A stretch of DNA of 64,000 nt from Natronococcus sp. AD-5 (GTDB lineage: Archaea; Halobacteriota; Halobacteria; Halobacteriales; Natrialbaceae), in contig NZ_CP132295.1 of assembly GCF_030734285.1 (NCBI RefSeq), positions 682,001 to 746,000 on the forward strand. Reading direction: 5' to 3'. The notes under the pieces were generated by a model, which was not told the DNA's origin, ran no database searches, and saw nothing but the letters and a program-made list of their open reading frames with translations. Below, one piece after another: positions 7,610 through 58,960 of the stretch (positions are counted from its first letter, which is position 1; the number at the start of each line of letters is the position of its first letter). The position numbers were made by a program, and so were the translations under genes.

Positions 7610-8000
7610 CGAAAGCAACGGGAGTGGCGGCCGGAGGCGACGAACTCGGGCACCCGTTAGTCGAGATTCCTCTCGAGGAGGAATCCGGTCCGTTCCATCA
7701 GCATCACGGGAACGAAGAGACGATGTACGTTCTTCGCGCGTGCGACACGCTTCGTACGGCAAACGGTGATCCGATCGGGAACCGAAGCGGTTCGCCGCGC
7801 GTGGTGTGCATGCGATGTGCGCCGGCCTCACCGGAAGGAAGAGCCACGTAGCTCTTCGGAGACGTCGGATCGGCGATGCAGCATCCGTACCCGAACGTCA
7901 TCGGCCCGGTCGCGGGCGGGCCTGGCAGCCCTGACGGGTTCACGGTCCGGCACGCGCTCCGGGCCGACGCCGAAGCCGAGCTCGGCGAGCGCGGCCGATC
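7610..8000 (+). pseudogene. Decayed cupin-domain protein
   Basis: The forward strand carries a recognisable cupin core, IPLEEESGPFHQHHGNEET followed by MYVLRACDTLRTANGD, in which the HxHH...E metal-binding motif is intact. Downstream the match breaks and changes frame (pieces such as VVCMRCAP, then MQHPYPNVIGPVAGGPG and GFTVRHALRADAEAEL), with an in-frame stop near 7849. No single frame spans the domain, so the gene is dead. It converges on another decayed gene (8027-8685) and forms part of a run of broken genes. Confidence 0.55.
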
Positions 8001-8026
8001 GATCGAGTACGCGACGCGTGCGATCG

Positions 8027-8685
8027 TCAGCCCACCTCCGCTCGCTCCCCGACGCGGTATCGAAGGTGCGTTACGGCAGCTGACGCTACCGCCCTCGTTC
8101 GTTCCAGTTCTATCGGCGCACCGTCCGACCGCGCGAACGAACGAATTCCGTCTCCGAGCAGGAGGGGAACGAGGTGAATCCGCAACTCGTCGAGCAGTCC
8201 CGCCTCGAGACACTGCTGAACGGCGTTCGCGCCGCCCGCGATCGAAACGTCCCCGTCGCCCGCGGCTTCCTTCGCCCGCTCTACGGCGCTCTCGGTACCG
8301 TCGGTCACGAAGGTGAACGTCGTGCCGCCGTCCGTCACGAGCGGCTCCCGGGGGTGGTGCGTGAGGACGAATTCCGGCACGCCGAAGGGGGGGTTCTCAC
8401 CCCAATGGCCTTCGACGGGTCGTCTCTCCACGGGCCGTCGTCGCTGTCGAACATTCGCCGGCCCATCACGACCGCGCCCACGTTCTCGATGGAATCCTTA
8501 AGGATCGCGTCGTCCCCGTCCGTCTCTCCGTCCTTGAGGCCGCGGGCCTCGCGCCAGCTCGCGAGATCGTATATCCACTCGTGGAGGCGTTCCCCGCCGT
8601 CACCAAGGGGATACTCGGGGCTATCGTTCGGTCCGGCGACGAACCCGTCCAGCGACGTCGACACGTTTGCAGCGACTTTTGTCAC
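8027..8685 (-). pseudogene. Dihydrofolate reductase-like (RibD C-terminal domain) protein, frameshifted
   Basis: The N-terminal half (VTKVAANVSTSLDGFVAGPND and later VVMGRRMFD) and the C-terminal half (WGENPPFGVPEFVLTH, then GGANAVQQCLEAGLLDEL and HLVPLLLGDGIR) together make a complete RibD/DHFR-like reductase of about 220 residues, a family of NADPH-dependent reductases. They lie in different frames; comparison of the join near 8410-8420 suggests a small deletion of about 4 nt. The GTG start at 8685 has a good GGAGGT about 9 nt upstream. The gene follows a broken SRPBCC gene in the ArsR-SRPBCC operon, so it was probably the operon's last member. Confidence 0.7.
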
Positions 8686-8689
8686 GCCA

Positions 8690-9135
8690 GGTTTCACCTC
8701 CGTTCCGTCGGGCTGCAAGGTGTGCGTCGAGCCGATCGAGCGTCTGCTTCGCGCCTTCGACCGCGCCGAACCCCGCGGCTTCGTCGCGTTCCGCTTCCGA
8801 CGCGAAGCGCATCCGCATGGTGAGCGCGGTCTTGCCGCCTTCCCGTTCGTCGAACGTCAGCCACTCGAAACGGATCGGGATCGTCGTCGGACCCGGGAGA
8901 GTAGGCCAGGTACTCGTTCCCGTCGGGATCGGTCATCACGTACCGCCGGACGCCGCCCGGCCGCAGGTTGATCTCGGCGGTCGCGGTCGTGAAACCGTCC
9001 GGTCCCCACCACCGCGTCACCTGCTCCGGGTCGGTCCAGGCGCCCCAGACGCGTTCGCGCGGGGCGTCGAACGTTCGCCGGACGGTCAGACTCGTCTCGG
9101 CCGTTTCGACCTCGTCGCCCGTCCGAGCCCGTCAC
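8690..9135 (-). pseudogene. Decayed SRPBCC (AHSA1-like) protein
   Basis: Three pieces in different frames reconstruct an AHSA1/SRPBCC domain: FDAPRERVWGAWTDPEQ, then WWGPDGFTTATAEINLRPGG, then ALTMRMRFASEAERDEAAG and GAVEGAKQTLDRLDAHLA. Compared with the intact paralogue immediately upstream (9132-9635), the segment around PGVYREVVEPERL is missing near 8880, so there is a real internal deletion as well as frameshifts. Proteins of this family bind hydrophobic ligands; no function remains likely here. The gene is an apparent tandem duplicate. Confidence 0.7.
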
Positions 9136-36325: not shown

Positions 36326-36846
36326 CCGTTGCCACCGGGATGTCGATCAGGGAGACTGCCCGTGGAACGAATGTCAGTGAGGGATACGATCGAGTGCGGC
36401 CGGGTGGCGGCGTAAGATGTGGAGTATCGGCTACGCGGGCGATGACGGCTCGACGCTCGAGGTCAGGTTCGCCGGGCGAGAAGTCCTCGAGCATCGGAAT
36501 ACGATCCGGCTGGTGTCGCACTCGCCGAGTCCTCGCGTGCGATCGATCTGCGCGAGGGTGCGATAGACCCGCCCGAAGCAGCGCTCGAGGCGGGCGCCGT
36601 TACGCTCGCGACCGCCGTGCTCGGGACGATCACCGTCGCGGGGTTGCTCTCGTTTTCCGACGGTTTCGATCGAGTGTCACCGCTACTCGGCGACGATCGT
36701 CAACGTGGCTTTTTCGGCGTTTTCTGTCGTGTCCGTGAAACTAAGTGCTATTCCGCTGGAAAAGTAAAAGGTACAACTAACTCGATCCAGAGCGAAGCTC
36801 AAGTGATTCCAGATATGAAGGTCCGATGCTCGAGGGTGATCGTACC
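36326..36846. other. Degenerate stretch downstream of the mobile element
   Basis: Forward-strand pieces such as GDDGSTLEVRFAGREVLEH (about 36440-36500) and then, in another frame, EGAIDPPEAALEAGAVTLAT (about 36555-36615) look like haloarchaeal protein remnants, but no single frame is open. No family assigned. Confidence 0.4.
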
Positions 36847-38286
36847 GTGACCGATCGTCCCGCTTCACCACTCACGCGCGCAGGGTCCTTTTTCACACGC
36901 GCCCGGTCGTTTCTCTCGCGGAATAGACTCCGGGTCACGTTCATAGCGATACTCCTGCTCTCCGCCGCGCTCGTCGCCAGCGCGGCGTCGAACGACGAGC
37001 TCTCGACCGCATCCGAAGCCGAGGTACCGAACGCGCCGGAGACCGACGGGCACACGGTCGTCACCGAGTCCGGACGCGCGGGAACGATCACCGCCTACAC
37101 GCCCGACGGTGAGGTGATGTACTACAACAACACGCGGACGAAGTACTTCGACGCCGATCCCCTCGAGGACGATCCGATGACCGTCGAGTACGCGGCGACG
37201 GACACGATCCACACGGAGGGCCCGACCTGCAGCGATCCGCCGTGTGCGAAAAACGTCATCGAGCGGGTCGATCTCGAAACCGGCGAAGTCGAGGTCGTTT
37301 ACAAGCGCTACGATTACAAAGAGACCGCCGGCGAGTGGCACGATTCGACGCGGATCAACGAAACGCACGTCGCTATCGCCGACATCGTCGACGATCAAGT
37401 GTTCGTCGTGAACACCGAGACGGAGGTCATCGAGTGGCTCTGGGACGCCCAGAGCGACTTCCCGGTCGAGGAGGGCGGACATTATCCGGAAGACTGGGCC
37501 CACATCAACGACGTCGAGTACATCGATGAGGGCCAACACGAGGGGCGGATCATGGCCAGCCTCCGGAACCAGGATCAAGTCGTCTTCCTCGATCCCGACG
37601 AGGGATTAGTCGAGGACTGGACGCTCGGGAGCGAGGACGACTACGAGATCCAGTACGAGCAGCACAACCCCGACTACATCCCCGAGTCGCAGGGCGGTCC
37701 GGCGATCGTCGTCGCCGATTCGGAGAACGGGCGGGTCCAGGAGTTCCAGCGCGAGGACGGTGAGTGGAACCGGACCTGGCAGTGGGAGGACGATCGGATC
37801 CAGTGGCCTCGAGATGCTGACCGACTCCCCAACGGAAACACGCTCATCGCCGACAGCCACGGCAACCGCGTGATAGAGGTCGACGAGTCGGGCGAGATCG
37901 TGTGGGAGGTCGAGTCGACGCTGCCCTACGAAGCGGAACGCCTGGAGACCGGAGCGGAGAGCGAAGACGGCCAAAGCGCGGCCGAACTCGGGCTCGAGTC
38001 GCGCACGAACGACGGCGGCAGCGGCGGCAGTACCGGTGGGAGCGGTAACAGCGGGCTCGTATTCAACCCGTTCGAGTTCCTCGGCGACCTCCTCGCGGAG
38101 CACCTTCCCCACCGGGTGTACAACGCGATGCTCTTCGTGTCGCCGATCTGGATGGGATCGACCGAGTTCGCCGCCATCGGCACCGCACTCCTGACCGGAA
38201 TGACGTGGGCCGGCCTCGAGCTCAGGTGGCTGCTTCACGACGCCGGCGTTCGATTCCGGCTGCCCGTCTACCGGAGGAACGAGTGA
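36847..38286 (+). CDS. Arylsulfotransferase (ASST)-like membrane-anchored protein
   Basis: 479 residues if the GTG at 36847 (GGTGAT six nt upstream) is used; an ATG at 36826 adds seven. An N-terminal membrane segment (VTFIAILLLSAALVASAAS) is followed by a six-bladed-propeller-type region with ASST features: DTIHTEGPTC, HINDVEYIDEG, LRNQDQVVFLDP, ADRLPNGNTLIADSHGNRV and IVWEVESTLPYEAE. A glycine/serine-rich linker and two C-terminal membrane segments follow. ASST enzymes transfer sulfate between phenolic compounds; in haloarchaea these proteins occur in surface-glycan regions and their reaction is uncertain. The extracytoplasmic face is the likely location of the propeller. Confidence 0.75.
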   Translation: MTDRPASPLTRAGSFFTRARSFLSRNRLRVTFIAILLLSAALVASAASNDELSTASEAEVPNAPETDGHTVVTESGRAGTITAYTPDGEVMYYNNTRTKYFDADPLEDDPMTVEYAATDTIHTEGPTCSDPPCAKNVIERVDLETGEVEVVYKRYDYKETAGEWHDSTRINETHVAIADIVDDQVFVVNTETEVIEWLWDAQSDFPVEEGGHYPEDWAHINDVEYIDEGQHEGRIMASLRNQDQVVFLDPDEGLVEDWTLGSEDDYEIQYEQHNPDYIPESQGGPAIVVADSENGRVQEFQREDGEWNRTWQWEDDRIQWPRDADRLPNGNTLIADSHGNRVIEVDESGEIVWEVESTLPYEAERLETGAESEDGQSAAELGLESRTNDGGSGGSTGGSGNSGLVFNPFEFLGDLLAEHLPHRVYNAMLFVSPIWMGSTEFAAIGTALLTGMTWAGLELRWLLHDAGVRFRLPVYRRNE

Positions 38287-39687: not shown

Positions 39688-40707
39688 TCAGCGGAGCGCT
39701 CGGACGCCGAACGCCGACACCGACGCACCGCCGATCAAGACCGGCATCCAGTAGATCGCGCCGCGGAAGATGAGCACGGCCGCGGTGACGGCCGACGCCT
39801 CGATGCCGGTCGTCGGGACGAGCAGCGTAACGAACGCGGCCTCGATTCCGCCGAGCCCGCCCGGGAGCGGGGCCGCGCCGGCGAGATTGGCGAGGGGAAT
39901 CACGAACAGCAGGACGTACGGCGGGACGCTGTACCCGAGAGCGGCGAACGCCGCCGTGAGCGCGGCCGTCTGGAAGAGCCAGCCGCACAACGACAGTCCG
40001 ATCACAGCGGTTAGCCGCGATCGGTCCGTTGCGACGCGCTCGATGTTCTCGAAGAACCGTCCGAGCCGATCCGTGAGGTCCGCCTCGAGCGTCTCGGCGT
40101 CGAAACGTGTGACGCCGAGCCGGCCGATTCGGGGTGCGACGATGGCGGGAAGCCGGTCGATGAGCCCGTCCCGGCGGCGCCAGACGAGTAGCATGGCGAG
40201 CACGATCGCGACGATCAGCGCGACCGCCGAGGCGACGGCCGTCTCGAGTCGATCATCGATGGCGGCGTCGGTCGCGTAGTAGCCGACGCCGACGAGGACG
40301 AGCGAGATGGACGGAATCACGTTGAGAACGTCGACGCTCGCGATGCCGACGAGGCCGGTTTCGTACTCGGAGTCGGAGACTTTCGAGATGAGCAACGCGG
40401 CGACGGGTTCGCCGCCGGCCTGGCCGAACGGCGTGACGTTGTTGGCGAAAACCGCGCCGGCGTAGACGAAAAACGCCTTGCCGATCGGAACGTCGACGCC
40501 GAGCGTGGCGAGGACGGTCCGGAGCATCAAACTCCAGGCGGCCAGCCAGCAGAGCGCGAGACCGATCGTCGCGGCGACCAGGGCGAGATCCGCTGCGAGC
40601 AACGACTCGACGGTGCGACGCGCCCCGACGAGGAAGAATAGGATGGCAAAGATCGCCACCGTCCCGAAAACGCCGACGAGAAACGCCCGCCGGTTACGCT
40701 CGTTCAT
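39688..40707 (-). CDS. AglD/UPF0104-type polytopic membrane protein (lysylphosphatidylglycerol synthase TM region)
   Basis: 339 residues with about eight helices. Family landmarks: NNVTPFGQAGGEPVAALLIS near residue 90 and PLANLAGAAPLPGGLGGIEA near residue 265. This membrane domain occurs in bacterial MprF, where it flips lipids, and in haloarchaeal AglD-type proteins of the N-glycosylation pathway. Here there is no fused glycosyltransferase. A role in moving lipid-linked sugars across the membrane is inferred from family and neighbours. A second homologue sits at 50401-51366. Confidence 0.85.
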   Translation of the reverse strand: MNERNRRAFLVGVFGTVAIFAILFFLVGARRTVESLLAADLALVAATIGLALCWLAAWSLMLRTVLATLGVDVPIGKAFFVYAGAVFANNVTPFGQAGGEPVAALLISKVSDSEYETGLVGIASVDVLNVIPSISLVLVGVGYYATDAAIDDRLETAVASAVALIVAIVLAMLLVWRRRDGLIDRLPAIVAPRIGRLGVTRFDAETLEADLTDRLGRFFENIERVATDRSRLTAVIGLSLCGWLFQTAALTAAFAALGYSVPPYVLLFVIPLANLAGAAPLPGGLGGIEAAFVTLLVPTTGIEASAVTAAVLIFRGAIYWMPVLIGGASVSAFGVRALR

Positions 40708-40812
40708 AGTTGATATGGATCGCTACTGAACTTGAAACGTCTGTTTGCTGTCGCCCGGAGAGCGGCCGGAATTCGACTCGTTTTATTGGGATGGACCCGT
40801 TTATCTCTGGTA

Positions 40813-42390
40813 ATGGAAAGGACTCGTCAGTCGAACGTCCTCTTCGTCGTTCTAGATACGGTCCGAAAGGACCGGCTCGGTCCGTACGGGTACGAGCGAG
40901 GGACGACGCCCGAACTCACGGCGTTCGCCGAGGAGGCGACCGTTTTCGAGTCGGCGGTCGCGCCGGCCCCGTGGACGCTGCCGGTCCACGCCTCGCTGTT
41001 TACCGGTCTGTACCCGAGCCAGCACGGGGCCGACCAGGGGAGTCCGTACCTCGACGACGCCACGACCCTCGCGTCGGTCCTGTCGGCGGCCGACTACGAC
41101 ACCGCGTGTTACTCCTCGAACGCCTGGATCACGCCCTACACCGGCCTCACCGACGGCTTCGACGCCCAGGACTCCTTCTTCGAGGTCCTCCCCGGCGACG
41201 TCCTCTCGGGGCCGCTAGCCGGCGCGTGGCAGGCCATCAACGACAACGACTACCTCCGCAACGCGGCCTCGAAGCTCGTCAGGATCGGCGCGATGGCCCA
41301 CGCCAAACTCGCCAGCGACGAGAGCGCCGATTCGAAGACGCCGTCGGTCGTCGACCGGACGAAGTCGTTCATCGACGACAGCGAGAGCGAGCGGGGCTGG
41401 TTCGCCTTCGTGAACCTGATGGACGCGCATCTTCCCTACTACCCCCCCGAGGAGTACCGCGAAGCGTTCGCCCCAGGCGTCGACCCCGACGACGTGTGTC
41501 AAAATTCCAAGGAGTACAACTCGGGCGCCCGGGCGATCGACGACGAGGAGTGGGACGCGATTCGCGGCCTCTACGACGCCGAAATCGCCCACATGGACGC
41601 CGAGCTCGGCCGCCTGTTCGACTGGCTTCGCGAGACCGACCGGTGGGAGGAGACGACCGTCGTCGTCTGCGCCGACCACGGCGAACTCCACGGCGAACAC
41701 GACCTCTACGGCCACGAGTTCGCCCTCTACGACGAACTGATCAACGTCCCGCTGCTGATAAAACACCCCGACCTCGAGGCCGACCGGCGCGACGATCTGG
41801 TCGAGTTACTCGACTGCTATCACACGATCCTGGAGACGCTGGACGTCGATCCCGACGCGGTAGCCGGGACGGACGGGGAGGGAAGCGCCGTCGCTCGCGA
41901 CTCCACGCGGTCGCTGCTCTCCGACGAGTATCGCGCCTTCGACGAGGCGGCGGAGACGGACCCCGGCCATCGCGCGGTGCTCGAGGCCGAGGACGAAGAC
42001 GACTACGCGTTCGTCGAGTACGCCCAGCCGGTCATCGAACTCCACCACCTCGAGCAGAAAGCGAGCGAGGCCGGTATCGACCTCCCCGAGGGCCACCGGG
42101 CCTACTCGCGGCTGCGCGCCGCCCGCAGTACAGACGCGAAGTACGTCCGCGCCGACCGCATTCCCGACGAGGGCTACCGCCTCGACGAGGATCCCGACGA
42201 GGAATCGCCGATCGACGCGGCGGACGACGAGGCCGTTGCCGCGACCGAACGGGCGCTCGCCCGGTTCGAGGACGCCGTCGGCGGCGCGTGGGACGACCCG
42301 GCCGAGACGGCCGGCGACGGGGCCGATGCTCTGGCGGAGGCCGACGAGGAAACCCGCGACCGGCTGCGCGAACTCGGCTACCTCGAGTGA
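40813..42390 (+). CDS. Sulfatase-like alkaline-phosphatase-superfamily protein without formylglycine site
   Basis: 525 residues from the ATG at 40813, with a TATA-like TTTTATTG about 30-35 nt upstream. The sulfatase fold is clear: NVLFVVLDTVRKDRLGPYGY (metal Asp), CADHGELHGEHDLYGHEFAL (second metal site) and later metal-site residues. At the nucleophile position the usual CxPSR motif is replaced by WTLPVHASLFTG, where Thr aligns with the modified Cys/Ser. It is therefore more likely a phosphotransferase or phosphodiesterase, or a sulfatase-like protein with Thr nucleophile. No signal peptide. It belongs to the glycan region. Confidence 0.8.
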   Translation: MERTRQSNVLFVVLDTVRKDRLGPYGYERGTTPELTAFAEEATVFESAVAPAPWTLPVHASLFTGLYPSQHGADQGSPYLDDATTLASVLSAADYDTACYSSNAWITPYTGLTDGFDAQDSFFEVLPGDVLSGPLAGAWQAINDNDYLRNAASKLVRIGAMAHAKLASDESADSKTPSVVDRTKSFIDDSESERGWFAFVNLMDAHLPYYPPEEYREAFAPGVDPDDVCQNSKEYNSGARAIDDEEWDAIRGLYDAEIAHMDAELGRLFDWLRETDRWEETTVVVCADHGELHGEHDLYGHEFALYDELINVPLLIKHPDLEADRRDDLVELLDCYHTILETLDVDPDAVAGTDGEGSAVARDSTRSLLSDEYRAFDEAAETDPGHRAVLEAEDEDDYAFVEYAQPVIELHHLEQKASEAGIDLPEGHRAYSRLRAARSTDAKYVRADRIPDEGYRLDEDPDEESPIDAADDEAVAATERALARFEDAVGGAWDDPAETAGDGADALAEADEETRDRLRELGYLE

Positions 42391-42499
42391 CGCACCGGAT
42401 CGGACGATACATCACCGCGACGATAGGCTAAGACAGCTAGAGTGAATGTCCAGGCATCGATAAGAATACATAGGTTGACTCAAAATCTCCCTCGTATCG

Positions 42500-43351
42500 A
42501 TGGAAGACCAGCGTTTTCTCGAGTCGGAGTGGGACTACTGTCTGGTCCTGGACGCGTGTCGGTACGACGTGTTCGACGAGGTCTACGACGACTACCTGGA
42601 CGGAACGGTAGAAAAGCGCTGGAGCGCCGGCTCGTCGACGCCGGAGTGGGCTTACCGGACGTTCACCGGCGATCACGACATCGCGTACTTTTCGGGAAAC
42701 CCCTTCATCAACGACCTGGGAATTCCGCTGAACGAACTCAAGTGGGGGGCGAGTTGCGACTACGAGTGGACGGCCACGGCACACATCAGCGACGTCTTCG
42801 ACGTCTGGAAATCGGGTTGGAACGACGAACTCGGAACGGTGCCGCCGGAGGCGCTGGCGAAATCGTTTCGAACCCATCGGGACGCCGCCAGGCGGGCCGA
42901 CCGGACGGTGCTTCACTACATGCAGCCGCACGCACCCTACCTCTCGAGGGGGAAAGGCCAGAAGCTCAAGCAGATCCAGAAGGGCATCAGACGGCAGGAA
43001 GAAGCTCAGGACGACGAAGACGGCGCGTTCACGGCGCTCGGCGACACGATCCGCCCGAAGATCGAACACCGACTCGAGGGGAGCGAACTCGCGCAGAAAG
43101 CCGGTCTCTGGCTCGAACTCGACCCCGCCGACCTCGTCAAGAACGGCACGCGCGAGGCGGCCTTAGAGCTGTACGAGGAGAACCTGCGAATCGCGCTCGA
43201 GGCCGTCGCCGACCTGATCCCGGAACTGGACGGCCGGGTCGTCGTGACCGCCGACCACGGGGAGGCCTTCGGCGAGGAGGGCGTCTGGGAGCACCACATC
43301 GAGACGCACATTCCGTCGCTCATGGAAGTGCCGTGGCTCGAAGTCGAGTGA
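42500..43351 (+). CDS. Short alkaline-phosphatase-superfamily (sulfatase-like) protein
   Basis: 283 residues. It opens with WDYCLVLDACRYDVFDEVYD (metal Asp), has SAGSSTPEWAYRTF at the nucleophile position and ends with VVTADHGEAFGEEGVWEHH, the second metal site. Between them is a charged helical stretch. It is much shorter than typical sulfatases (about 450-550 residues). Homologues of this length are known beside archaeal glycosyltransferases. It may transfer phosphate-linked groups to glycans or lipids; no direct evidence. It precedes two glycosyltransferases in the same direction. Confidence 0.75.
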   Translation: MEDQRFLESEWDYCLVLDACRYDVFDEVYDDYLDGTVEKRWSAGSSTPEWAYRTFTGDHDIAYFSGNPFINDLGIPLNELKWGASCDYEWTATAHISDVFDVWKSGWNDELGTVPPEALAKSFRTHRDAARRADRTVLHYMQPHAPYLSRGKGQKLKQIQKGIRRQEEAQDDEDGAFTALGDTIRPKIEHRLEGSELAQKAGLWLELDPADLVKNGTREAALELYEENLRIALEAVADLIPELDGRVVVTADHGEAFGEEGVWEHHIETHIPSLMEVPWLEVE

Positions 43352-43436
43352 CCGACGGTCGGACTCGTCGGAGCACCGCGGTCGCCGGCTCGCCCCGGCG
43401 ATTTCGATCGACCGAGGGGAACGCAACACGTCCGAG

Positions 43437-44423
43437 ATGAAGATCAGCCACTACTTCGAATTCGAGGCTCACGTCACCGGCGGCATCCGGGAGTCGGTCG
43501 CCCACCAGCGGAAGATTCTGGACCGGCTGGATCTCGAGTACACGACCGAGCCGACTCCCGATGCCGACGTCTTCCACTGCAACCTGCTGGGTCCCCGGTC
43601 GGCGTGGTACGCGAAGCGGGCCCGGTCGCGGGGCGTCCCGGTCGTCGCCCACACGCACGTCACGGCCGAGGACTTCGGAGACAGCTTCCGCTTTACGAAC
43701 GCCCTCGCCAAGCCGCTGAAACCGTACCTCGAGTGGGCGTACGGGCTGGCCGACGCGCTGGTCTGTCCCTCGTCGTACAACCGACGGCTGATCGAGACGT
43801 ACGCGGACGCGCCGACGACCGTCATCTCGAACGGCGTCGACCGCGAGAAGCTCGCGGGCTTCGAGTCCCTCGAGTCGGAGTATCGCGAGCGATACGACCT
43901 CGAGTCGCCCGTGGTCTTTCTGGTCGGCCACGTCATCAAGCGCAAGGGCCTCGAGACGTTCGTCGAACTGGCTCGCCGGCTGCCCGAGTTCGACTTCGCG
44001 TGGTTCGGTCCCCTCGATCTCCCGCTGAAGGGACGGGAGACGACGGCGCTGATCGAGGGTTCACCCGAGAACTGCACGTTCACCGGGTACGTCGACGACA
44101 TCCGCGGTGCGTATGCAGCGGGCGATATCTTCTGTTTCCCGACCCACGAGGAGAACGAGGGGATCGCACTGCTCGAAGCGATGACCGCGGGCAAACCGAT
44201 TCTTGTCCGCGACATCGAACCGTTCTCGTGGCTCGAGGACGGCGAGGACTGCCTGAAGGCCCCGGCGAGAGCGGGGGTCGACGCGTTCGAGGATGCCCTG
44301 GAGCGGCTCGCGAATCCCGAACTCCGGCGTCGACTGGGAACGAACGCGGCCGACCGAAGCGAACGGTTCTCGCTCGAGGCGGTCGCGAACCGGTACCGGA
44401 CCCTGTACGAGGAGGTGATCTGA
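43437..44423 (+). CDS. Glycosyltransferase family 4/GT-B type protein
   Basis: 328 residues. The GT-B fold is seen in an N-terminal half with VFHCNLLGPRSAWYAKRARS and the C-terminal nucleotide-sugar domain (VFLVGHVIKRKGLETFVELA, then HEENEGIALLEAMTAGKPIL, the EX7E motif). It would transfer a hexose from an NDP-sugar to a lipid-linked or surface glycan. The stop is immediately followed by the ATG of a second glycosyltransferase (TGAATG), so the two are co-translated. Cytoplasmic face of the membrane. Confidence 0.88.
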   Translation: MKISHYFEFEAHVTGGIRESVAHQRKILDRLDLEYTTEPTPDADVFHCNLLGPRSAWYAKRARSRGVPVVAHTHVTAEDFGDSFRFTNALAKPLKPYLEWAYGLADALVCPSSYNRRLIETYADAPTTVISNGVDREKLAGFESLESEYRERYDLESPVVFLVGHVIKRKGLETFVELARRLPEFDFAWFGPLDLPLKGRETTALIEGSPENCTFTGYVDDIRGAYAAGDIFCFPTHEENEGIALLEAMTAGKPILVRDIEPFSWLEDGEDCLKAPARAGVDAFEDALERLANPELRRRLGTNAADRSERFSLEAVANRYRTLYEEVI

Positions 44424-45521
44424 ATGAAAATCGGCTTCTTTACGGACAGCTACTTCCCCGAGATCGACGGCGTGACGTACACGATCAAACTCTGGCGAGA
44501 GGAGTTAGAACGGAAGGGCCACGAGGTGTACGTCGTCTACCCGGACGGCGACTACGAACCCGGCGAGCGCGAACTTCCGGTCAAATCGCTTCCGAACCCC
44601 TTCTACGCCGGCTACCGGATTCCGCTGTTCAGGCGGCCCTCGACGCTCCCGGAACTCGACGTCGTCCACTGTCACGGTCCCGCACCGGTCGGCATCCTCG
44701 GACGCTATTACGCCCGGAAACACGACGTACCGACGGTCTACACCCACCACACGCCCCTCGAGGAGTACTTCCACCAGAGCGTCAAACTCGAGTCGATCGC
44801 CGACGCCATGGGGAAGCTGTACGTTCCCCTGGAGAACGCGCTCCTCGAAAGCTTCGATATCGTGACCGCCTCGACCGGGCGAATCGAACGCGACGTCACG
44901 CACGTTCCGCTCCCGGTCGGCATCGATATGGAGTTCTTCCAGCCCGCCGAAACGGACTGGTACCCGGACCGGACGGTGATCGGCTACAGCGGCCGACTCA
45001 GCATGGAGAAAAACGTCAGCGACATCCTTCGGGTCGCGGCTGAGTTACCGGAGTACGAGTTCGTCGTCGTCGGCGAGGGGCCCTACCGCGATTCCCTCGA
45101 GCGGAACGCGCCGGACAACGTCGAGCTTCGGACGTTCCTCCCTCGAGCGGAGTTGCCGATATTTTACTCCTCGATCGACGCGTTCGTAACGGCCTCGACG
45201 GCCGATACGCTCGGCCTGTCCACGCTCGAGGCCAACGCCTGCGGCACGCCCGTCGCCGCGGCCGACGTCGCACCGTTCGACCAGACGATCGGTTCCGACA
45301 ACGGCGAACGGTTCGAGTACGGGGACCTCGAGGCGATGGCCGACGCCATCGAAACGTGCCTCCGAACGGATCGAGACACCAGGGCGGCCGTCGACCGGTA
45401 CGACGTCGATCACACGCTGGAACACCTCGAGGACCTGTATCGCAACGTGCAGACGTCGGGTGAGACGCCGGTGACGGCCGACTGGGGAGTCTCCGAAGAG
45501 TCACAGGAATCGCTCGATTGA
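44424..45521 (+). CDS. Glycosyltransferase family 4 (GT-B) protein
   Basis: 365 residues. N-terminal Rossmann domain: FFTDSYFPEIDGVTYTIKLW (residues 5-24) and DVVHCHGPAPVGILGRYYA; the C-terminal domain begins VIGYSGRLSMEKNVSDILR and has the EX7E-type loop TADTLGLSTLEANACGTPVA. This matches PimB/diacylglycerol-glucosyltransferase-like enzymes that glycosylate lipids. It starts at the nucleotide after the preceding glycosyltransferase stop, so an operon is certain. The acceptor may be a lipid carrier or glycolipid. Confidence 0.9.
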   Translation: MKIGFFTDSYFPEIDGVTYTIKLWREELERKGHEVYVVYPDGDYEPGERELPVKSLPNPFYAGYRIPLFRRPSTLPELDVVHCHGPAPVGILGRYYARKHDVPTVYTHHTPLEEYFHQSVKLESIADAMGKLYVPLENALLESFDIVTASTGRIERDVTHVPLPVGIDMEFFQPAETDWYPDRTVIGYSGRLSMEKNVSDILRVAAELPEYEFVVVGEGPYRDSLERNAPDNVELRTFLPRAELPIFYSSIDAFVTASTADTLGLSTLEANACGTPVAAADVAPFDQTIGSDNGERFEYGDLEAMADAIETCLRTDRDTRAAVDRYDVDHTLEHLEDLYRNVQTSGETPVTADWGVSEESQESLD

Positions 45522-45676: not shown

Positions 45677-47056
45677 CTACCCGCGGTCGATTCGCTCCGG
45701 CCACGTGTCGCACCGCTGTCTGTCCAGCCGATCGTCGGTCATCGCGACCCACCGCACTTCGTTCCAACTCACCCGGTAGTGGCAGGTCTCCGGTTGCCGT
45801 TTCTCCCAGTAGATGGTCTGCATCGACGGGACGTCCGCATCGGCCGGCGTGATCGGCAGCGGCTCATCCGGCTTGGCCTCCTCTTCCATCGTCTGGAGCG
45901 TCGACTGCGGGGGCGGCGAACCGTAGGTCCAGGCCACCCCCGAAAGGACGAACAGTCCGATGACGACGACGACGGCGGCGATTACCCACCGACGGCGGTC
46001 CGTCCGGGCCGCACCGTCACTGCGGTGGTCCGTCCGCGATGGCTCGTCACTGCGGTCCGTCGCCGACCACCGCGCGGCCGCGCGCTCGACGGCGATGGCC
46101 ACGCCGAGCGCGACGAACGCGAGCCACTGGAGCGCGTCCGTCGAGCCGTCCATGTCGATGTACAGTACTTGAAAGCCGAACAGCAAGCCCCCCGCCAGCA
46201 CCCACCACCGCTCCCGCGGGTTGCGGACGGCCGCGTGCGCCCAGCCGTAAAACGCCACCGGGAGGAGCAGCGATCCGTAGCCGAACACGAGCAGTATCGA
46301 GTAGACGTGCTCGGTCAGGGAGTGCGGTGATCCGGCGATCAGCGGCGCGAGCACCGTCTGTACGACCATCGGCACCAGCGCACCCGCGGCCGCGAACGCG
46401 AGGACCACGACGCCGGTCACGACGCCGCCGCCTGCGACCGCCGAGAGCGCACCCCGCTTCCCGGTTCGCTGGTACGCCATCCCGACGACCAACAGCGCGA
46501 AGACGGCCCCCGATTGCCACGAGCCGGCGCTTAGCGCCGCGAGGGCTCCGGCGAGAAACGGCCGGTCGCGGAGAGCGAGCGCGAGCGCGAAGGCGCCGAA
46601 AAACAGCGCGTAGAACTGCGCTCTGACCCCCTGTTGGGGAAGGAGGAAGAGCTGAGAGACGACGAGCATCGTCAGCCCCGCGGCGACCGCCGCCGCGTCC
46701 TCTCCGGTCACGAGGTACGCCACCCACCCGACGAGCAAGACGCTCGCGGCGGCGACGAGCGTCGTGAGCGCCACGGCGAGACCGTGTAGGACGAGCATGT
46801 TCCCGCCGGAGAGGGCGGCGAGAACGGCCGTGATTGCGAACGGTACGGGCGGGTTCACGTCCCAGACGTCGACGTACGGTACGCCGCCCTGGAGAACGTA
46901 CCAGCCCGTGTGCTGGAAGAACGCCGGATCGGTCGAGATCGCCGGCCACCCGGCCCGAAGATACTCGACTGATCCGAAGGCGAACGCGATGGCGACGATC
47001 GGAGCGAGGATCGCGATCCAAGCGGATCGAATCGTGGGAAGTGAACGCGTTGACAT
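45677..47056 (-). CDS. Polytopic GT-C-like membrane protein (dolichyl-phosphate-sugar glycosyltransferase type)
   Basis: 459 residues from the ATG at 47056 with about ten to eleven helices and one extracytoplasmic C-terminal tail. The first external loop carries STDPAFFQHTGWYVLQGGVP followed by VDVWDVNPP, a GT-C/GT39-like acidic motif (Asp near a WDxNPP stretch). These enzymes use polyprenyl-phosphate-linked sugars as donors outside the membrane. The C-terminal tail contains CHYRVSWNEVRWVAM, with two cysteines that might form a disulfide. It is a candidate for the acceptor of the lipid-linked sugar predicted from the neighbouring UbiA gene. Confidence 0.75.
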   Translation of the reverse strand: MSTRSLPTIRSAWIAILAPIVAIAFAFGSVEYLRAGWPAISTDPAFFQHTGWYVLQGGVPYVDVWDVNPPVPFAITAVLAALSGGNMLVLHGLAVALTTLVAAASVLLVGWVAYLVTGEDAAAVAAGLTMLVVSQLFLLPQQGVRAQFYALFFGAFALALALRDRPFLAGALAALSAGSWQSGAVFALLVVGMAYQRTGKRGALSAVAGGGVVTGVVVLAFAAAGALVPMVVQTVLAPLIAGSPHSLTEHVYSILLVFGYGSLLLPVAFYGWAHAAVRNPRERWWVLAGGLLFGFQVLYIDMDGSTDALQWLAFVALGVAIAVERAAARWSATDRSDEPSRTDHRSDGAARTDRRRWVIAAVVVVIGLFVLSGVAWTYGSPPPQSTLQTMEEEAKPDEPLPITPADADVPSMQTIYWEKRQPETCHYRVSWNEVRWVAMTDDRLDRQRCDTWPERIDRG

Positions 47057-47241
47057 GGGAGAGAGTCTCACCAGCCGTACGATTACGCACATCGAAGAGC
47101 CACCTGAGTGTATCGATTATCTCTCACGAGACTGAGCCGAACCGCCGCAGGATCGAACTCCCATCGTTCGGGACGCCGTTTCCGAGACGTTCGGTGGCGA
47201 AAGTGCCCGGTCACCGAGCGAGCGCCGGTTGCCGGTGCCGT

Positions 47242-48333
47242 TCAAATGCGCTGCGAGACCTTCTTCGCGACGGCGAGGGCACCCTGGTCCCACGCGACGC
47301 GGTGATCGAGACCGCTCTCGTCGGTCCCTTCGTCGGCCTCGTAGTTCTCCAGGTACCACTCGTACGTCTCCACGAGCGCCTCCCGGTTGGAGTACTCCGG
47401 CTCCCACCCGAGACGCTTCAGTTTCTCGACGGAAACGTAGGAGTCCTCGTAGGCCGTCTCGTAGACCCACGGGTACAGCGGGGAGAGGTTCAGCCTCTCC
47501 AGCACGCGGAGGACGGCGACCGTGAGGAACGCGGGCGTCCCGATGGTGCGCTTGCCCGTCCCCGCGCGGTCTATGGGCGCCTGGAAGTCCTCCTTCATCG
47601 TGCCGAACTCGTCGGCGCCGACGTTGAACGTATCGTTCACCGCCTTCTCGTCCCCGGTGAGCAGCAGTTCGATGGCGGTGACGAGGTCGTGAACGTGCAG
47701 TAGCTGATAGTGGTTGTCACCCCACCCGACGAGCGGGACGTTCGCCCCGTCCTCGATCCAGTCGAACAGCACCTGGAACACGCCGAGTCGCTGCGGACCG
47801 ATGAACGTCTTGGGGCGGAGGATGGGGACGCACATCCCCCTGCGACGGAAGTCCTGACAGAGTTTTTCGGCCCGTATCTTGGCCTCGCCGTAGGGGCCAA
47901 CCCCGTCTAAGGGCGACTCCTCGGTGATGGGGTGTTCGTCGTGAGTCCCGTACACCGCGGTCGAGGAGATGTAACAGACTCGTTCGACGCCGTGGTCGTT
48001 CGCCGCCCAGAGAACGTTCCGCGTCCCGTCGATGGTCGTCTCCCGAATGCGGTCGGCGTCCCACAGCGGGAGCGCGGCCGCCGCGTGGACGACGGCGGTG
48101 GCGCCGCTCTCCTCGAGCGCGTCGGCCACGTCGCCCTCGCTCCGGACGTCGCCCGTGACGAACTCGATTCCTTCCGTGTCGTCCTCCTCCTCGAAGGGTT
48201 TGAGGTCGAACGCGGTGACGTCCCATCCCTGGTCGCGGAAGTGCTGGCACGTGTGGAGACCGAGGAATCCGGTCCCTCCCGTGACGAGAACCGAACCGGT
48301 CGAATCGTCGCTGGCGCGCTCACTTTCGCTCAT
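47242..48333 (-). CDS. NAD-dependent epimerase/dehydratase (extended SDR)
   Basis: 363 residues from the ATG at 48333 (longer frames upstream are not acidic). The NAD motif is VLVTGGTGFLGLHTCQHF (residues 15-32); the acidic residue binding the ribose is in FDLKPFEE; VVHAAAALPL and the catalytic Ser/Tyr-Lys segment ISSTAVYGTHDEH with GPYGEAKIRAEKLC complete the site. It modifies an NDP-sugar or lipid-linked sugar. It is divergent to the UbiA-family gene at 48778. A lipid-linked-pentose epimerase role is possible but unproven; UDP-hexose epimerase is the default alternative. Confidence 0.88.
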   Translation of the reverse strand: MSESERASDDSTGSVLVTGGTGFLGLHTCQHFRDQGWDVTAFDLKPFEEEDDTEGIEFVTGDVRSEGDVADALEESGATAVVHAAAALPLWDADRIRETTIDGTRNVLWAANDHGVERVCYISSTAVYGTHDEHPITEESPLDGVGPYGEAKIRAEKLCQDFRRRGMCVPILRPKTFIGPQRLGVFQVLFDWIEDGANVPLVGWGDNHYQLLHVHDLVTAIELLLTGDEKAVNDTFNVGADEFGTMKEDFQAPIDRAGTGKRTIGTPAFLTVAVLRVLERLNLSPLYPWVYETAYEDSYVSVEKLKRLGWEPEYSNREALVETYEWYLENYEADEGTDESGLDHRVAWDQGALAVAKKVSQRI

Positions 48334-48777
48334 CGTGACATCAGGCCGGACGTCGACGCGACGCTTCAATAGTGTATCGGCAGTTAGCCGACAGTAAAAC
48401 GGCAGAGATGACTCGTGATCGCTCGGGAACACGTGCTCGAAGCGGGATAGCGGATCAAATCGAATACGGCGTGCGAAGTCGTTATTACGGTGCGATCCGC
48501 GAAAGCCGCCGGACGTCGAAACAGTGGCTCGAACCGCAACGGCCGACTCGTCGACCGGTAGTTCCGAGCTCTCGTTTTCGCTCGAGCGAACGTTTCCGAT
48601 AGCTCCGCTCGGGATATTTCGATGATATCGGCCGAACGTCGATACTGCGACGGATCGCTGGAAGTGAAACAAGTCCAATATCAAGACTCCCTATATTTAG
48701 CACAGTCAAACACTCGTAAAGAGGGTTAATATGAGCGCGAGCCTTTTTTGTTCATTCTGAGGGTTGAGTGATAGACG
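48334..48777. other. Divergent intergenic region between epimerase and UbiA genes
   Basis: About 440 bp with no gene. A nine-codon frame starting at the ATG at 48731 ends just before the UbiA start; I do not claim that it is translated. AT-rich stretch CCCTATATTTAGC near 48690 may be the UbiA promoter. Confidence 0.4.
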
Positions 48778-49692
48778 ATGGCTCGCGTCTACGCCGACCA
48801 GAGTCGGCTCATGGGAACCGTTTCCGGCCTCGTAAAGGAGATACGTCCCTGGCAGTGGTACAAACAGAGCATCCTCCTGCTGGGACTCGTCTTCTCCAAG
48901 AGTTTGTTCGATCCGGTCGCCGTTACGAACGTCGTCCTCGGAATCGTCGCCTTCTGTGCTATCGCGGGCGCGACGTACATCGGCAACGACATCGCCGACG
49001 TCGAAGAGGACCGCAACCACCCGCGAAAGAAACACCGGCCCATCGCCAGCGGGCAGGTGTCGATCCCCGTCGCGGCGGCGTTCGGCGCCCTGCTCTTCGT
49101 CGGCGGACTCACTCTCTCCTGGCGTCTCGGTCCGCTGTTTTTCATCGTCATCCTCGCGTATCTCGCACAGAACAGTCTTTACACCGCCTACCTGAAGGAG
49201 ATCGTCATCGTCGACGTGATGGTCATCGCCATCGGATTCGTCCTGCGGGCCATCGCGGGCGTCGTCGCCATCGACGTCTACCTGAGCCCCTGGCTCGTCG
49301 TCTGTACGTTCCTCACGGCGCTGATGCTCGCGCTCGGCAAGCGCCGCCACGAGATGACCATTAGCGACGATCCGGCCGCGTCGCGCGCCATCCTCGCCGA
49401 GTACACCGAGGAGACGCTCGACCACCTGCTCATCGTCGTTCTCTCGGCGCTGGTCGTCTCCTACTCGCTCTACACGTTCTTCCGCGGCGGAGAGTGGATG
49501 ATGGTCACGCTCCCGTTCGCCTTTTTCGCGGTCTTCCGCTACCACCATCTCGTGTATACGAAGGATCTGGGCGGCAACCCGAAGTTCCTCCTCGGCGATC
49601 GCCCGTTTCTCGTCAACCTCGTCGCCTGGGGCCTCGTCGTTATCGCGATCCTTTACCAGGACCCGTCCCAACTACTCGAAACGATCACGTGA
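48778..49692 (+). CDS. UbiA-family prenyltransferase, decaprenyl-phosphate phosphoribosyltransferase-like
   Basis: 304 residues with about nine helices. After the N-terminal IRPWQWYKQSILLL comes the catalytic NDIADVEEDRNHPRKKHRPI (N70, D71, D74, D78, R79), then FVLRAIAGVVAI, LALGKRRHEM and FRYHHLVYTKDLGG. This combination (RPxQWxKN-like start, GKRxxE and RY) is that of the DPPR synthase branch (Rv3806c/UbiA), which joins phosphoribosyl diphosphate to polyprenyl phosphate, rather than quinone or GGGP prenyltransferases. It is followed by a PHP phosphoesterase gene (31-nt gap) that could remove the 5' phosphate. Confidence 0.85.
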   Translation: MARVYADQSRLMGTVSGLVKEIRPWQWYKQSILLLGLVFSKSLFDPVAVTNVVLGIVAFCAIAGATYIGNDIADVEEDRNHPRKKHRPIASGQVSIPVAAAFGALLFVGGLTLSWRLGPLFFIVILAYLAQNSLYTAYLKEIVIVDVMVIAIGFVLRAIAGVVAIDVYLSPWLVVCTFLTALMLALGKRRHEMTISDDPAASRAILAEYTEETLDHLLIVVLSALVVSYSLYTFFRGGEWMMVTLPFAFFAVFRYHHLVYTKDLGGNPKFLLGDRPFLVNLVAWGLVVIAILYQDPSQLLETIT

Positions 49693-49723
49693 CCAGTTCG
49701 TTCCACTTCGCACCGAGACCACC

Positions 49724-50404
49724 ATGACACGCCGATACGATCTCCAGGTACACACGGACGCCTCGCCCTGCTCGAGGACGCCTCCCGAGCGCGTCGCTGC
49801 AGCGGCGGTCGACGCCGGACTCGACGGCATCGCCGTCACCGATCACGACACGGTCGCCAACGTCGAATCCGTCCGGGACGCCGCGCCGGACGACCTCGAC
49901 GTGATTTCCGCAGTCGAGGTGACGACGACCGAGGGCCACCTCCTGGCGCTCGACGTGACGGAAGCGCCGCCGCAGGCGGACCCGCTGACGGTGATCGATC
50001 ACGTTCACGATCAGGGCGGCGTCGCCGTCCTCTCGCACCCGTTCGACGCGCTGCGACAGTACTACGAGACCGACCTCGAGGCCCTCGCCGAGGCCGTCGA
50101 CGGGATCGAGGCGGTGAACTCCCGCTGCGTCAGCCGACGGTTCAACGAGCGCGCAGCGGCGTTCGCGGCCGCCCACGACCTACCGGCGACCGGCGGGAGC
50201 GACGCTCACTTCCCGATGGAGGTCGGCCGCGCGTACACCAGCGTCGAGGGCGACGGGTCGCTCGCGGACGCCGTGCGCGAAGGGCGCGTGCGGCCGGGCG
50301 GTCGCGGACGGTACCTCTCGGGACACGTCGCGACGAAACTCCACCAGTTTCGCACCGTTTCCGGTCGCACCATTACGGATCTCACGTCGGGACGATTCCC
50401 ATGA
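49724..50404 (+). CDS. PHP-domain phosphoesterase
   Basis: 226 residues. PHP metal motifs are present: DLQVHTDASPCSRTP (HxD-like first motif), VTDHDT (TDHD motif), SAVEVTTTEGHLLALD (glutamate and histidine), AVLSHPFDAL (His) and ATGGSDAHFPMEVGRAY (SDAH). Such proteins hydrolyse phosphate esters or phosphodiesters with a trinuclear metal centre. Position between the UbiA gene and an AglD-like membrane protein, with ATGA overlap to the latter, suggests a role in the same lipid-linked sugar pathway, for example dephosphorylation of polyprenyl-phosphoribose 5-phosphate (inference). Confidence 0.88.
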   Translation: MTRRYDLQVHTDASPCSRTPPERVAAAAVDAGLDGIAVTDHDTVANVESVRDAAPDDLDVISAVEVTTTEGHLLALDVTEAPPQADPLTVIDHVHDQGGVAVLSHPFDALRQYYETDLEALAEAVDGIEAVNSRCVSRRFNERAAAFAAAHDLPATGGSDAHFPMEVGRAYTSVEGDGSLADAVREGRVRPGGRGRYLSGHVATKLHQFRTVSGRTITDLTSGRFP

Positions 50405-51366
50405 CGACGAGCGACAAAGCCGTCGTCGACCGAAGCCGGGCGGTCATCCGTAGTCACGGCGTCTGGCTGACGGCGCTGCTCTCGGTCGTCGTCTTCCTCG
50501 GCCTCGCCGTCTACGCGGACGTCGGTAACGTGATGACCGCTCTCGCCACGGTGGAGTGGGAGACGTTCGGAATCGTCGTCGGCCTAACGACCGCCGGCTA
50601 CGGCTTCCGGTTCGCCAAGTGGCATTACTACCTCCGCTGTCTCGAGATCGACGTTCCGTTCGATGCGAGCGCCGTCACCTTCTTCAGCGGCCTGATGATG
50701 GTCGTCACGCCGGGGAAGGCCGGCGAGGTCTGGAAGGCGTGGTTCCTCCGCGACAAGCGCGGCGTCCCCGCGAGCAAGACCACCTCCGTCGTCGGCGCCG
50801 AGCGCATCACGGATCTCATCGCGCTCAGCGCGATGGCCGCGCTCGGATTGGTGGTCTACAGCCGCTCGTCGCTCCCTATCGTCGGTATCCTCACCCTCCT
50901 CGCGGTCAGTATCGGGTTCCTTCAGTGGCGGCGGGCCTGTCTGGTGGTCCTCGGACGACTCGAATCGGTCCCGGTCGTCGGCGAGTACGCGACCGAACTC
51001 GAGCAGTTTTACGAGAGTACGTACCGTCTGTTCCAGTTCCGCCCGCTGGTCGTCTCGACGCTGTTTAGCCTCGGGGCGTGGGGATTAGAGGGGATCGCAC
51101 TCTGGGTGGTACTCGACGGGTTCGGCGTCGAAGCCAGCGTCGTGATCGGCCTGTTCGTCTTCGGGCTCGGATCGGTCGTCGGTGCGGTATCGATGCTCCC
51201 CGGTGGACTCGCGGCGGCGGAGGCGTCGATGGTCGGCGTGCTGGTCACGTTCGGCTACCCCGAAGCCGTCGCGGCCGCCGCCACGATGGTCATTCGCGTG
51301 GGGACGCTCTGGTACGCCGCGGCGCTCGGCACCGCGGTGTTTCTAACGTACAAGGGGACTCGGTGA
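50401..51366 (+). CDS. Second AglD/UPF0104-type membrane protein
   Basis: 321 residues with about eight helices. Landmarks: DASAVTFFSGLMMVVTPGKAG near residue 81, SKTTSVVGAERITDLIAL, and GSVVGAVSMLPGGLAAAEAS near residue 262. The two PxGxxG-type loops are the conserved part of the lysylphosphatidylglycerol-synthase membrane region. The ATG overlaps the PHP stop by 4 nt, so it is co-translated. Together with UbiA and PHP it could flip the finished lipid-linked sugar. It is a distant homologue of 39688-40707. Confidence 0.87.
   Translation: MTTSDKAVVDRSRAVIRSHGVWLTALLSVVVFLGLAVYADVGNVMTALATVEWETFGIVVGLTTAGYGFRFAKWHYYLRCLEIDVPFDASAVTFFSGLMMVVTPGKAGEVWKAWFLRDKRGVPASKTTSVVGAERITDLIALSAMAALGLVVYSRSSLPIVGILTLLAVSIGFLQWRRACLVVLGRLESVPVVGEYATELEQFYESTYRLFQFRPLVVSTLFSLGAWGLEGIALWVVLDGFGVEASVVIGLFVFGLGSVVGAVSMLPGGLAAAEASMVGVLVTFGYPEAVAAAATMVIRVGTLWYAAALGTAVFLTYKGTR

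Positions 51367-54139: not shown

Positions 54140-58960
<4,821 letters not shown>

Follow-up and report, generated by a model that had tools for sequence, protein, structure and literature searches.

We analysed a stretch of 64,000 nucleotides from Natronococcus sp. AD-5 (contig NZ_CP132295.1, positions 682,001 to 746,000; hereafter the window), in which a gene for a UbiA-fold enzyme stands next to genes for a PHP metallohydrolase, a UPF0104 membrane protein and a short-chain dehydrogenase/reductase (SDR). Judging from sequence, we consider it likely, with a probability of about 0.76, that the genes of this locus make up an archaeal pathway to a pentofuranose donor linked to polyprenyl (dolichyl) phosphate and used outside the membrane. 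In the proposed scenario, UbiA would be fed with phosphoribosyl pyrophosphate (PRPP) and would make polyprenyl-phosphate-ribose-5-phosphate, from which PHP would take off the 5-phosphate. The NAD-dependent SDR would then invert C2 or C3 of the lipid-linked ribose to yield arabinose or xylose, UPF0104 would flip the lipid-linked pentose across the membrane, and a neighbouring glycosyltransferase of the GT-C fold class, which varies between lineages, would transfer the pentose, with a surface glycan, a glycoprotein or a wall polymer as the acceptor. The UbiA step has good support from sequence, while the PHP and UPF0104 steps are predicted from family membership and near-perfect linkage, and the SDR and GT-C steps from linkage, motifs and one neighbour of the AftA family. 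It needs to be mentioned that each reaction, as well as the flipping direction, the pentose and the acceptor, is a prediction of this kind. The features of the locus are as follows.

48778..49692, + strand: UbiA-fold polyprenyl-phosphate phosphoribosyltransferase of the decaprenylphosphoryl-5-phosphoribose (DPPR) synthase or PPPRS type, by PRK12324.1-2, PDB 8j8j and PRPP-contact residues
49724..50404, + strand: PHP metallohydrolase, proposed polyprenyl-phosphate-ribose-5-phosphate 5-phosphatase, by PF02811/PF13263 (PHP and PHP_C), NF038032, an AlphaFold model and Q8/C16
50401..51366, + strand: UPF0104/TIGR00374/LPG_synthase_TM membrane protein, proposed lipid-linked pentose flippase, by PF03706 (E 3e-40), TIGR00374 (E 8e-31) and adjacency
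47242..48333, - strand: extended SDR with GalE-type epimerase motifs, proposed lipid-linked ribose epimerase, by the Epimerase family, TGGTGFLG, SSTAVY, Y145xxxK149 and co-occurrence
45677..47092, - strand: GT-C-like membrane glycosyltransferase, proposed pentose user, by PF15971 (dolichol-phosphate-mannose mannosyltransferase, E 5.9e-30) and conserved motifs
48334..48777, no strand: intergenic region separating the divergent SDR and UbiA genes, by sequence

The four genes UbiA, PHP, UPF0104 and SDR, named in the initial annotation, are open and lie where it had placed them. UbiA is followed after a gap of 31 bp by PHP, which overlaps UPF0104 by 4 bp on the same strand. The SDR gene is divergent to UbiA; since an ATG start at 48333 yields a protein of 363 amino acids, which is the length of the orthologues, the open reading frame of 480 amino acids starting with TTG is over-long. 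The GT-C-like gene lies beyond the SDR gene on its strand, with a likelier start at about 47056 as judged from relatives, and its TDPAFFQHTGW and VWDVNPPVPF motifs are conserved among them. The genome consists of two contigs, with the window on C2, and the same UbiA is found on plasmids of Haloterrigena sp. KLK7, Halostagnicola larsenii and Natronococcus sp. CG52.

By family assignment, the UbiA protein belongs with the phosphoribosyltransferases of the Rv3806c/DPPR-synthase type and not with the quinone or ether-lipid prenyltransferases. This protein of 304 amino acids has PF01040 as its sole Pfam domain and reaches 256.4 bits against a cut-off of 234 for the NCBIfam equivalog of decaprenyl-phosphate phosphoribosyltransferase (PRK12324.1-2); the other archaeal members score between 198 and 251, and 16 of 31 matches fall under the cut-off. 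Its scores for the NCBIfam quinone, haem and geranylgeranylglyceryl phosphate (GGGP) families stay well under the respective cut-offs, and its best relative in the PDB is Rv3806c itself (8j8j, E 1.5e-35). We took the residues contacting PRPP, Mg and pyrophosphate from the PRPP-bound structure of Rv3806c (PMC10994848). Nine of them (R22, K28, Y70, N73, D77, K87, R90, Y138 and K143, corresponding to R23, K29, Y67, N70, D74, K84, R87, Y135 and K140 in the window protein) are identical in 40/40 distinct archaeal sequences. Q135 is replaced by N and Y157 by F in all 40 (in bacterial relatives, N occurs in 46/65 and F in 64/65), and K208 is not conserved. Five of the genome’s other UbiA proteins were included in this comparison: K28 and H84 are missing from all five, and Y70 from four. 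In a tree of 80 rows, UbiA groups with the DPPR synthases, including Rv3806c, with the genome’s own UbiA paralogues and the digeranylgeranylglyceryl phosphate synthase of Methanocaldococcus outside. This tree was made by a quick method, has very long paralogue branches, unites the archaeal group in one clade with a support of 37, and leaves out 32 of the 65 bacterial rows; from the eight own UbiA loci, L007 and L008 (removed by the open-reading-frame filter) and L004 (the window protein) were left out of the residue comparison and the tree, as was a ninth own match below the cut-off. The DPPR-synthase motifs noticed in the initial annotation are thus borne out by a score above the equivalog cut-off and by the retained PRPP-contact residues.

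Linkage between UbiA, PHP and UPF0104 is far beyond chance. A UbiA family search in a class sample of 292 haloarchaeal genomes from 77 genera gave 31 matches, patchily spread over 29 genomes and 12 genera, and all 31 loci (the window and 30 fetched stretches) were examined. PHP and UPF0104 lie downstream of UbiA on the same strand in 30/30 fetched loci, or 31/31 with the window. The SDR gene is divergent in 27 of the 30 (in one of them, L059, it is broken), or in 28/31 with the window; of the remainder, L062 has an 88% identical SDR 5 kb off, and L067 and L068 have nearby SDRs of merely 36-38% identity. A scan of named genomes covered 15 haloarchaeal and 65 bacterial loci, with six of the 15 being the same records as class loci. 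Here, PHP and UPF0104 were found in 14 of the 15 haloarchaeal loci, the 15th ending at a contig end, and the SDR in 12, being absent from L075, L079 and L080. The lipid-linked pentose pathway proposed in the initial annotation is therefore supported on both grounds on which it could have fallen: UbiA sits with the DPPR synthases rather than with quinone or ether-lipid enzymes, and the linkage is conserved among haloarchaea and partly beyond them. As a separate observation, in six loci a VTT-domain (DedA-like) membrane protein lies convergently, directly after UPF0104 (L053:6861-7508, L056:11857-12666, L057:6895-7587, L059:11809-12501, L061:6790-7440 and L065:11936-12688; Pfam was run for one of these). 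Proteins of the DedA type recycle polyprenyl phosphate.

The AlphaFold model of the PHP protein (predicted local distance difference test score, pLDDT, 87) has the PHP fold, with Z scores of 17.9-22.3 to PHP structures: 22.3 to 3e38, 20.4 to PsfC (7rty) and 17.9 to the AMP- and phosphate-bound PHP enzyme 2yb1. The full set of PHP metal ligands consists of HxH, D, H, E, H, D and H. This set is incomplete in the linked haloarchaeal proteins, as Q8 and C16 replace His and Asp in 39/39 distinct sequences. Unlinked haloarchaeal PHP paralogues, on the other hand, carry the His and the Asp wherever both sites are aligned (28 loci, 27 genes), two further paralogues not being covered at positions 8/16, so the specialised site seems to go with linkage. 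Linked PHPs outside haloarchaea have H8 in 5/5 and C16 in 4/5 cases.

The SDR keeps TGGTGFLG, SSTAVY and YxxxK, a combination typical of GalE-type epimerases, and lacks the DE pair of 4,6-dehydratases. Its best PDB relatives, however, are nucleotide-sugar enzymes, which would fit a different scenario: UbiA, PHP and UPF0104 may make and flip polyprenyl-phosphate-ribose that is used as ribose, while the SDR serves the same surface glycan by acting on another substrate, a nucleotide sugar. The three named loci with UbiA, PHP and UPF0104 in the absence of any SDR, as well as the two with weak SDR relatives nearby, are consistent with this idea. On the other hand, the close SDR (E <= 1e-100) was found in 27 of the 292 genomes, every one of them among the 29 that carry UbiA, and its gene is usually divergent from UbiA; moreover, genetic support for a single SDR epimerase on a pathway of this kind has been described in Citrobacter (PMC11127046). 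We thus regard the use of ribose as such as a possible but distinctly less probable reading than epimerisation of the lipid-linked sugar.

The UPF0104 protein belongs to PF03706/TIGR00374, and UPF0104 proteins have been proposed to be flippases homologous to a domain of MprF, in a paper whose available text mentions neither UbiA nor PHP (PMC5898192). In a sequence search of the PDB with UPF0104 and the window GT-C as queries, there was no match at E <= 1. The neighbouring slot holds a member of a GT-C cluster or family in 19/31 loci, according to a Pfam run on representatives: cluster 4, which includes the window protein, in 12, cluster 6 in three, and further cases in L053, L056, L059 and L068. 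The neighbour in L059, a protein of 591 amino acids, is the most informative one: it matches AftA_N (E 1.5e-24) and AftA_C, as well as PDB 8if8 (E 2.1e-18), a galactan 5-O-arabinofuranosyltransferase. AftA_N occurs in one of the 292 genomes (G169), its sole match being this protein directly beside the module; the same search, which did not extend to the Emb families, found no AftA_N in the window’s genome. Cluster 5 proteins occupy the slot in nine loci and match PMT_2 only in two of the nine, at a sub-threshold E of 0.0005-0.0013. Because their structure model is poor (pLDDT 38, from two sequences), their GT-C nature rests on this match together with a THPPGA motif. The slot in L057, L058 and L065 gave no significant match. 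The three GT-C clusters, compared with each other by profiles built from shallow alignments, did not match significantly either.

As UPF0104 shares a family with MprF and with glucosaminyl-phosphatidylglycerol flippases, and the acceptor of the archaeal UbiA is itself a prediction, one might also suppose that UbiA acts on a phospholipid (archaetidic acid or one like it) and that the product is a ribosylated membrane lipid, made and flipped by the module in analogy to MprF and lysyl-phosphatidylglycerol. This seems unlikely to us: UbiA retains the Rv3806c family features and PRPP residues, and GT-C-like neighbours, including the AftA homologue, imply a lipid-linked sugar donor. A conventional quinone, haem or ether-lipid prenyltransferase of the UbiA type, whose neighbours would be unrelated to it, could be argued from the common UbiA fold and the PF01040 match, but is highly improbable and was rejected on its weak quinone, haem and GGGP scores, its residues, the position of the genome’s other UbiA proteins elsewhere in the tree, and the conserved linkage.

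Beyond haloarchaea, ten archaea with the UbiA enzyme turned up when 294 genomes from the phylum were searched. UbiA, PHP and UPF0104 occur together in five of them, at 30-44% identity, with at least one gene between members in two of the five loci. A sixth has UbiA with UPF0104 behind it, on a contig of 3.6 kb, a seventh has an SDR of 53% identity, and the remaining three of the ten have no PHP, UPF0104 or SDR, one of these being on a 5.5-kb contig. Bacterial relatives were ruled out as carriers of the PHP and UPF0104 pair, since neither of the window’s two proteins has a counterpart within 6 kb in any of the 65 bacterial loci, several of which are cut by contig ends. Two further observations concern the surroundings of these relatives. 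DPPR-synthase relatives from Chloroflexota (among bacterial loci L084-L148) often neighbour genes of the FtsJ, GHMP-kinase and amino-acid-kinase families, an isoprenoid-like context. A DUF362 (PF04015) protein adjoins the DPPR synthase or the module in four non-haloarchaeal archaea (L197:10111-11172, L199:8095-9261, L202:11607-12731 and L203:11648-12784), and a cluster with a DUF362 protein as its representative follows the DPPR synthase in bacterial L087, L094, L117, L123 and L135; this protein may be a further, unassigned step.

Several results weigh against a pathway for a lipid-linked pentofuranose donor. With two metal-ligand positions changed to Q8 and C16, phosphatase activity of the PHP protein cannot be assumed. 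The neighbouring slot is not clearly GT-C in 12/31 loci. In L059, the very locus with an intact AftA-family gene, the SDR gene beside it (7850-8901) carries a stop codon and a frameshift that break it; genome G169 keeps an intact SDR copy at its other module, L056. The nearest bacterial homologues, those of Chloroflexota, adjoin isoprenoid-type kinases and not glycan genes. Finally, the wall of Halococcus is a thick sulfated heteropolysaccharide, and the published list of its sugars, in the available part of the source, contains no pentose (PMC13321033), so that a role of the module in this wall is merely a lead. A more far-reaching version of the pentofuranose hypothesis, to which we give odds only slightly better than even, would have a PRPP-fed archaeal pathway in which a specialised PHP phosphatase (its metal site being of the Cys/Gln type in haloarchaea) and UPF0104 take over the roles of the phosphatases and flippases of bacteria, the choice of sugar falls to a single SDR, and a pentose that has so far escaped detection ends up in surface glycans, probably as a general feature of Halococcus.

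Other genes of the window may be of interest. Upstream of the locus, the part at 39688-45521 codes for two glycosyltransferases of family GT4, one of them IagA/BgsA-like, along with another UPF0104 protein, a sulfatase and a protein resembling sulfatases, and is possibly a glycolipid or wall-polymer cluster. An arylsulfotransferase-like protein is encoded at 36826-38286, and an arylsulfotransferase-like family (cluster 7) adjoins the module directly in eight relatives (Pfam was run on one). A beta-galactosidase of 1590 amino acids with inserted laminin-G-like domains lies at 54140-58912.

We found no account of such a pathway in archaea in the open-access PMC literature, subscription papers being outside the scope of this search. 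The sole published listing of the trio that we found is an uncommented UbiA-PHP-epimerase entry in the prophage table for Halanaeroarchaeum in the available text of PMC4866403. If the pathway is real, lipid-linked pentofuranose donors, known in mycobacteria and some other bacteria, exist in Archaea too, with a partly non-homologous set of enzymes. A substrate could then be assigned to a PHP subfamily that is so far an orphan and to one branch of the large UPF0104 family, and surface-glycan pentose would be predicted in organisms in which it was overlooked or never sought. Halococcus, with UbiA in 9/10 sampled genomes, offers a direct test case.

Three known systems may be compared with this module. 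AglD, AglR and AglS form the dolichol-phosphate-mannose branch of haloarchaeal N-glycosylation. This branch resembles the module in having a UPF0104 domain, which is the C-terminus of AglD according to the available text of PMC5898192, and a GT-C of the dolichol-phosphate-mannose mannosyltransferase type (PF15971). Its donor, however, is made from GDP-mannose by a cytoplasmic glycosyltransferase, whereas that of the archaeal module would be made from PRPP by UbiA.

The mycobacterial decaprenyl-phosphoryl-arabinose pathway (Rv3806c, Rv3807c, DprE1/E2, AftA and Emb) has a first enzyme of the same family (8j8j), and one AftA-family neighbour was found in archaea. It differs in using a phosphatase of a family other than PHP, and the archaeal epimerase is one extended SDR. 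Epimerisation of the DprE1 type was rejected: the ALO domain (PF04030), which we take as a marker for DprE1, a flavin adenine dinucleotide oxidase, is absent from the window’s genome and occurs in one of the 29 module-bearing genomes, outside the module; it was detected in Corynebacterium glutamicum, the positive control. The mycobacterial comparison made in the initial annotation thus holds for the first enzyme family, but the closest match is to be sought in the bacterial three-component systems with their single SDR (PMC11127046, as far as its available text describes them) and not in the pathway with PAP2 and DprE1/E2.

In these bacterial systems, according to the available text of Kelly et al. 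2024 (PMC11127046), a polyprenyl phosphoribose synthase works together with a phosphatase domain of the HAD family, a flippase of the MATE family and a GT136 transferase of the GT-C class. An SDR epimerase is optional; it converts ribofuranose to xylofuranose, and its gene, by its presence or absence, separates Citrobacter O2 from O1. The likeness to the systems of Citrobacter youngae O1/O2 covers a UbiA-type phosphoribosyltransferase acting on polyprenyl phosphate, dephosphorylation, a flippase, extracytoplasmic GT-C transfer and an optional single SDR epimerase, the archaeal SDR having TGxxGxxG and YxxxK. The absence of the SDR from three named archaeal loci resembles the O1/O2 difference reported there (PMC11127046). 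The bacterial phosphatase, though, is a HAD domain fused to UbiA, whereas the archaeal candidate is a separate PHP protein, and UPF0104/TIGR00374 stands in the place of MATE. Because these two families differ, the archaeal module is not a member of the three-component group by phosphatase or flippase. The bacterial GT-C is of family GT136; the archaeal neighbour is GT-C-like, matching PF15971 or resembling PMT_2, and is AftA-like in one genome. Taken together, we infer that the module follows the logic of bacterial pentofuranose systems with a different phosphatase and a different flippase.

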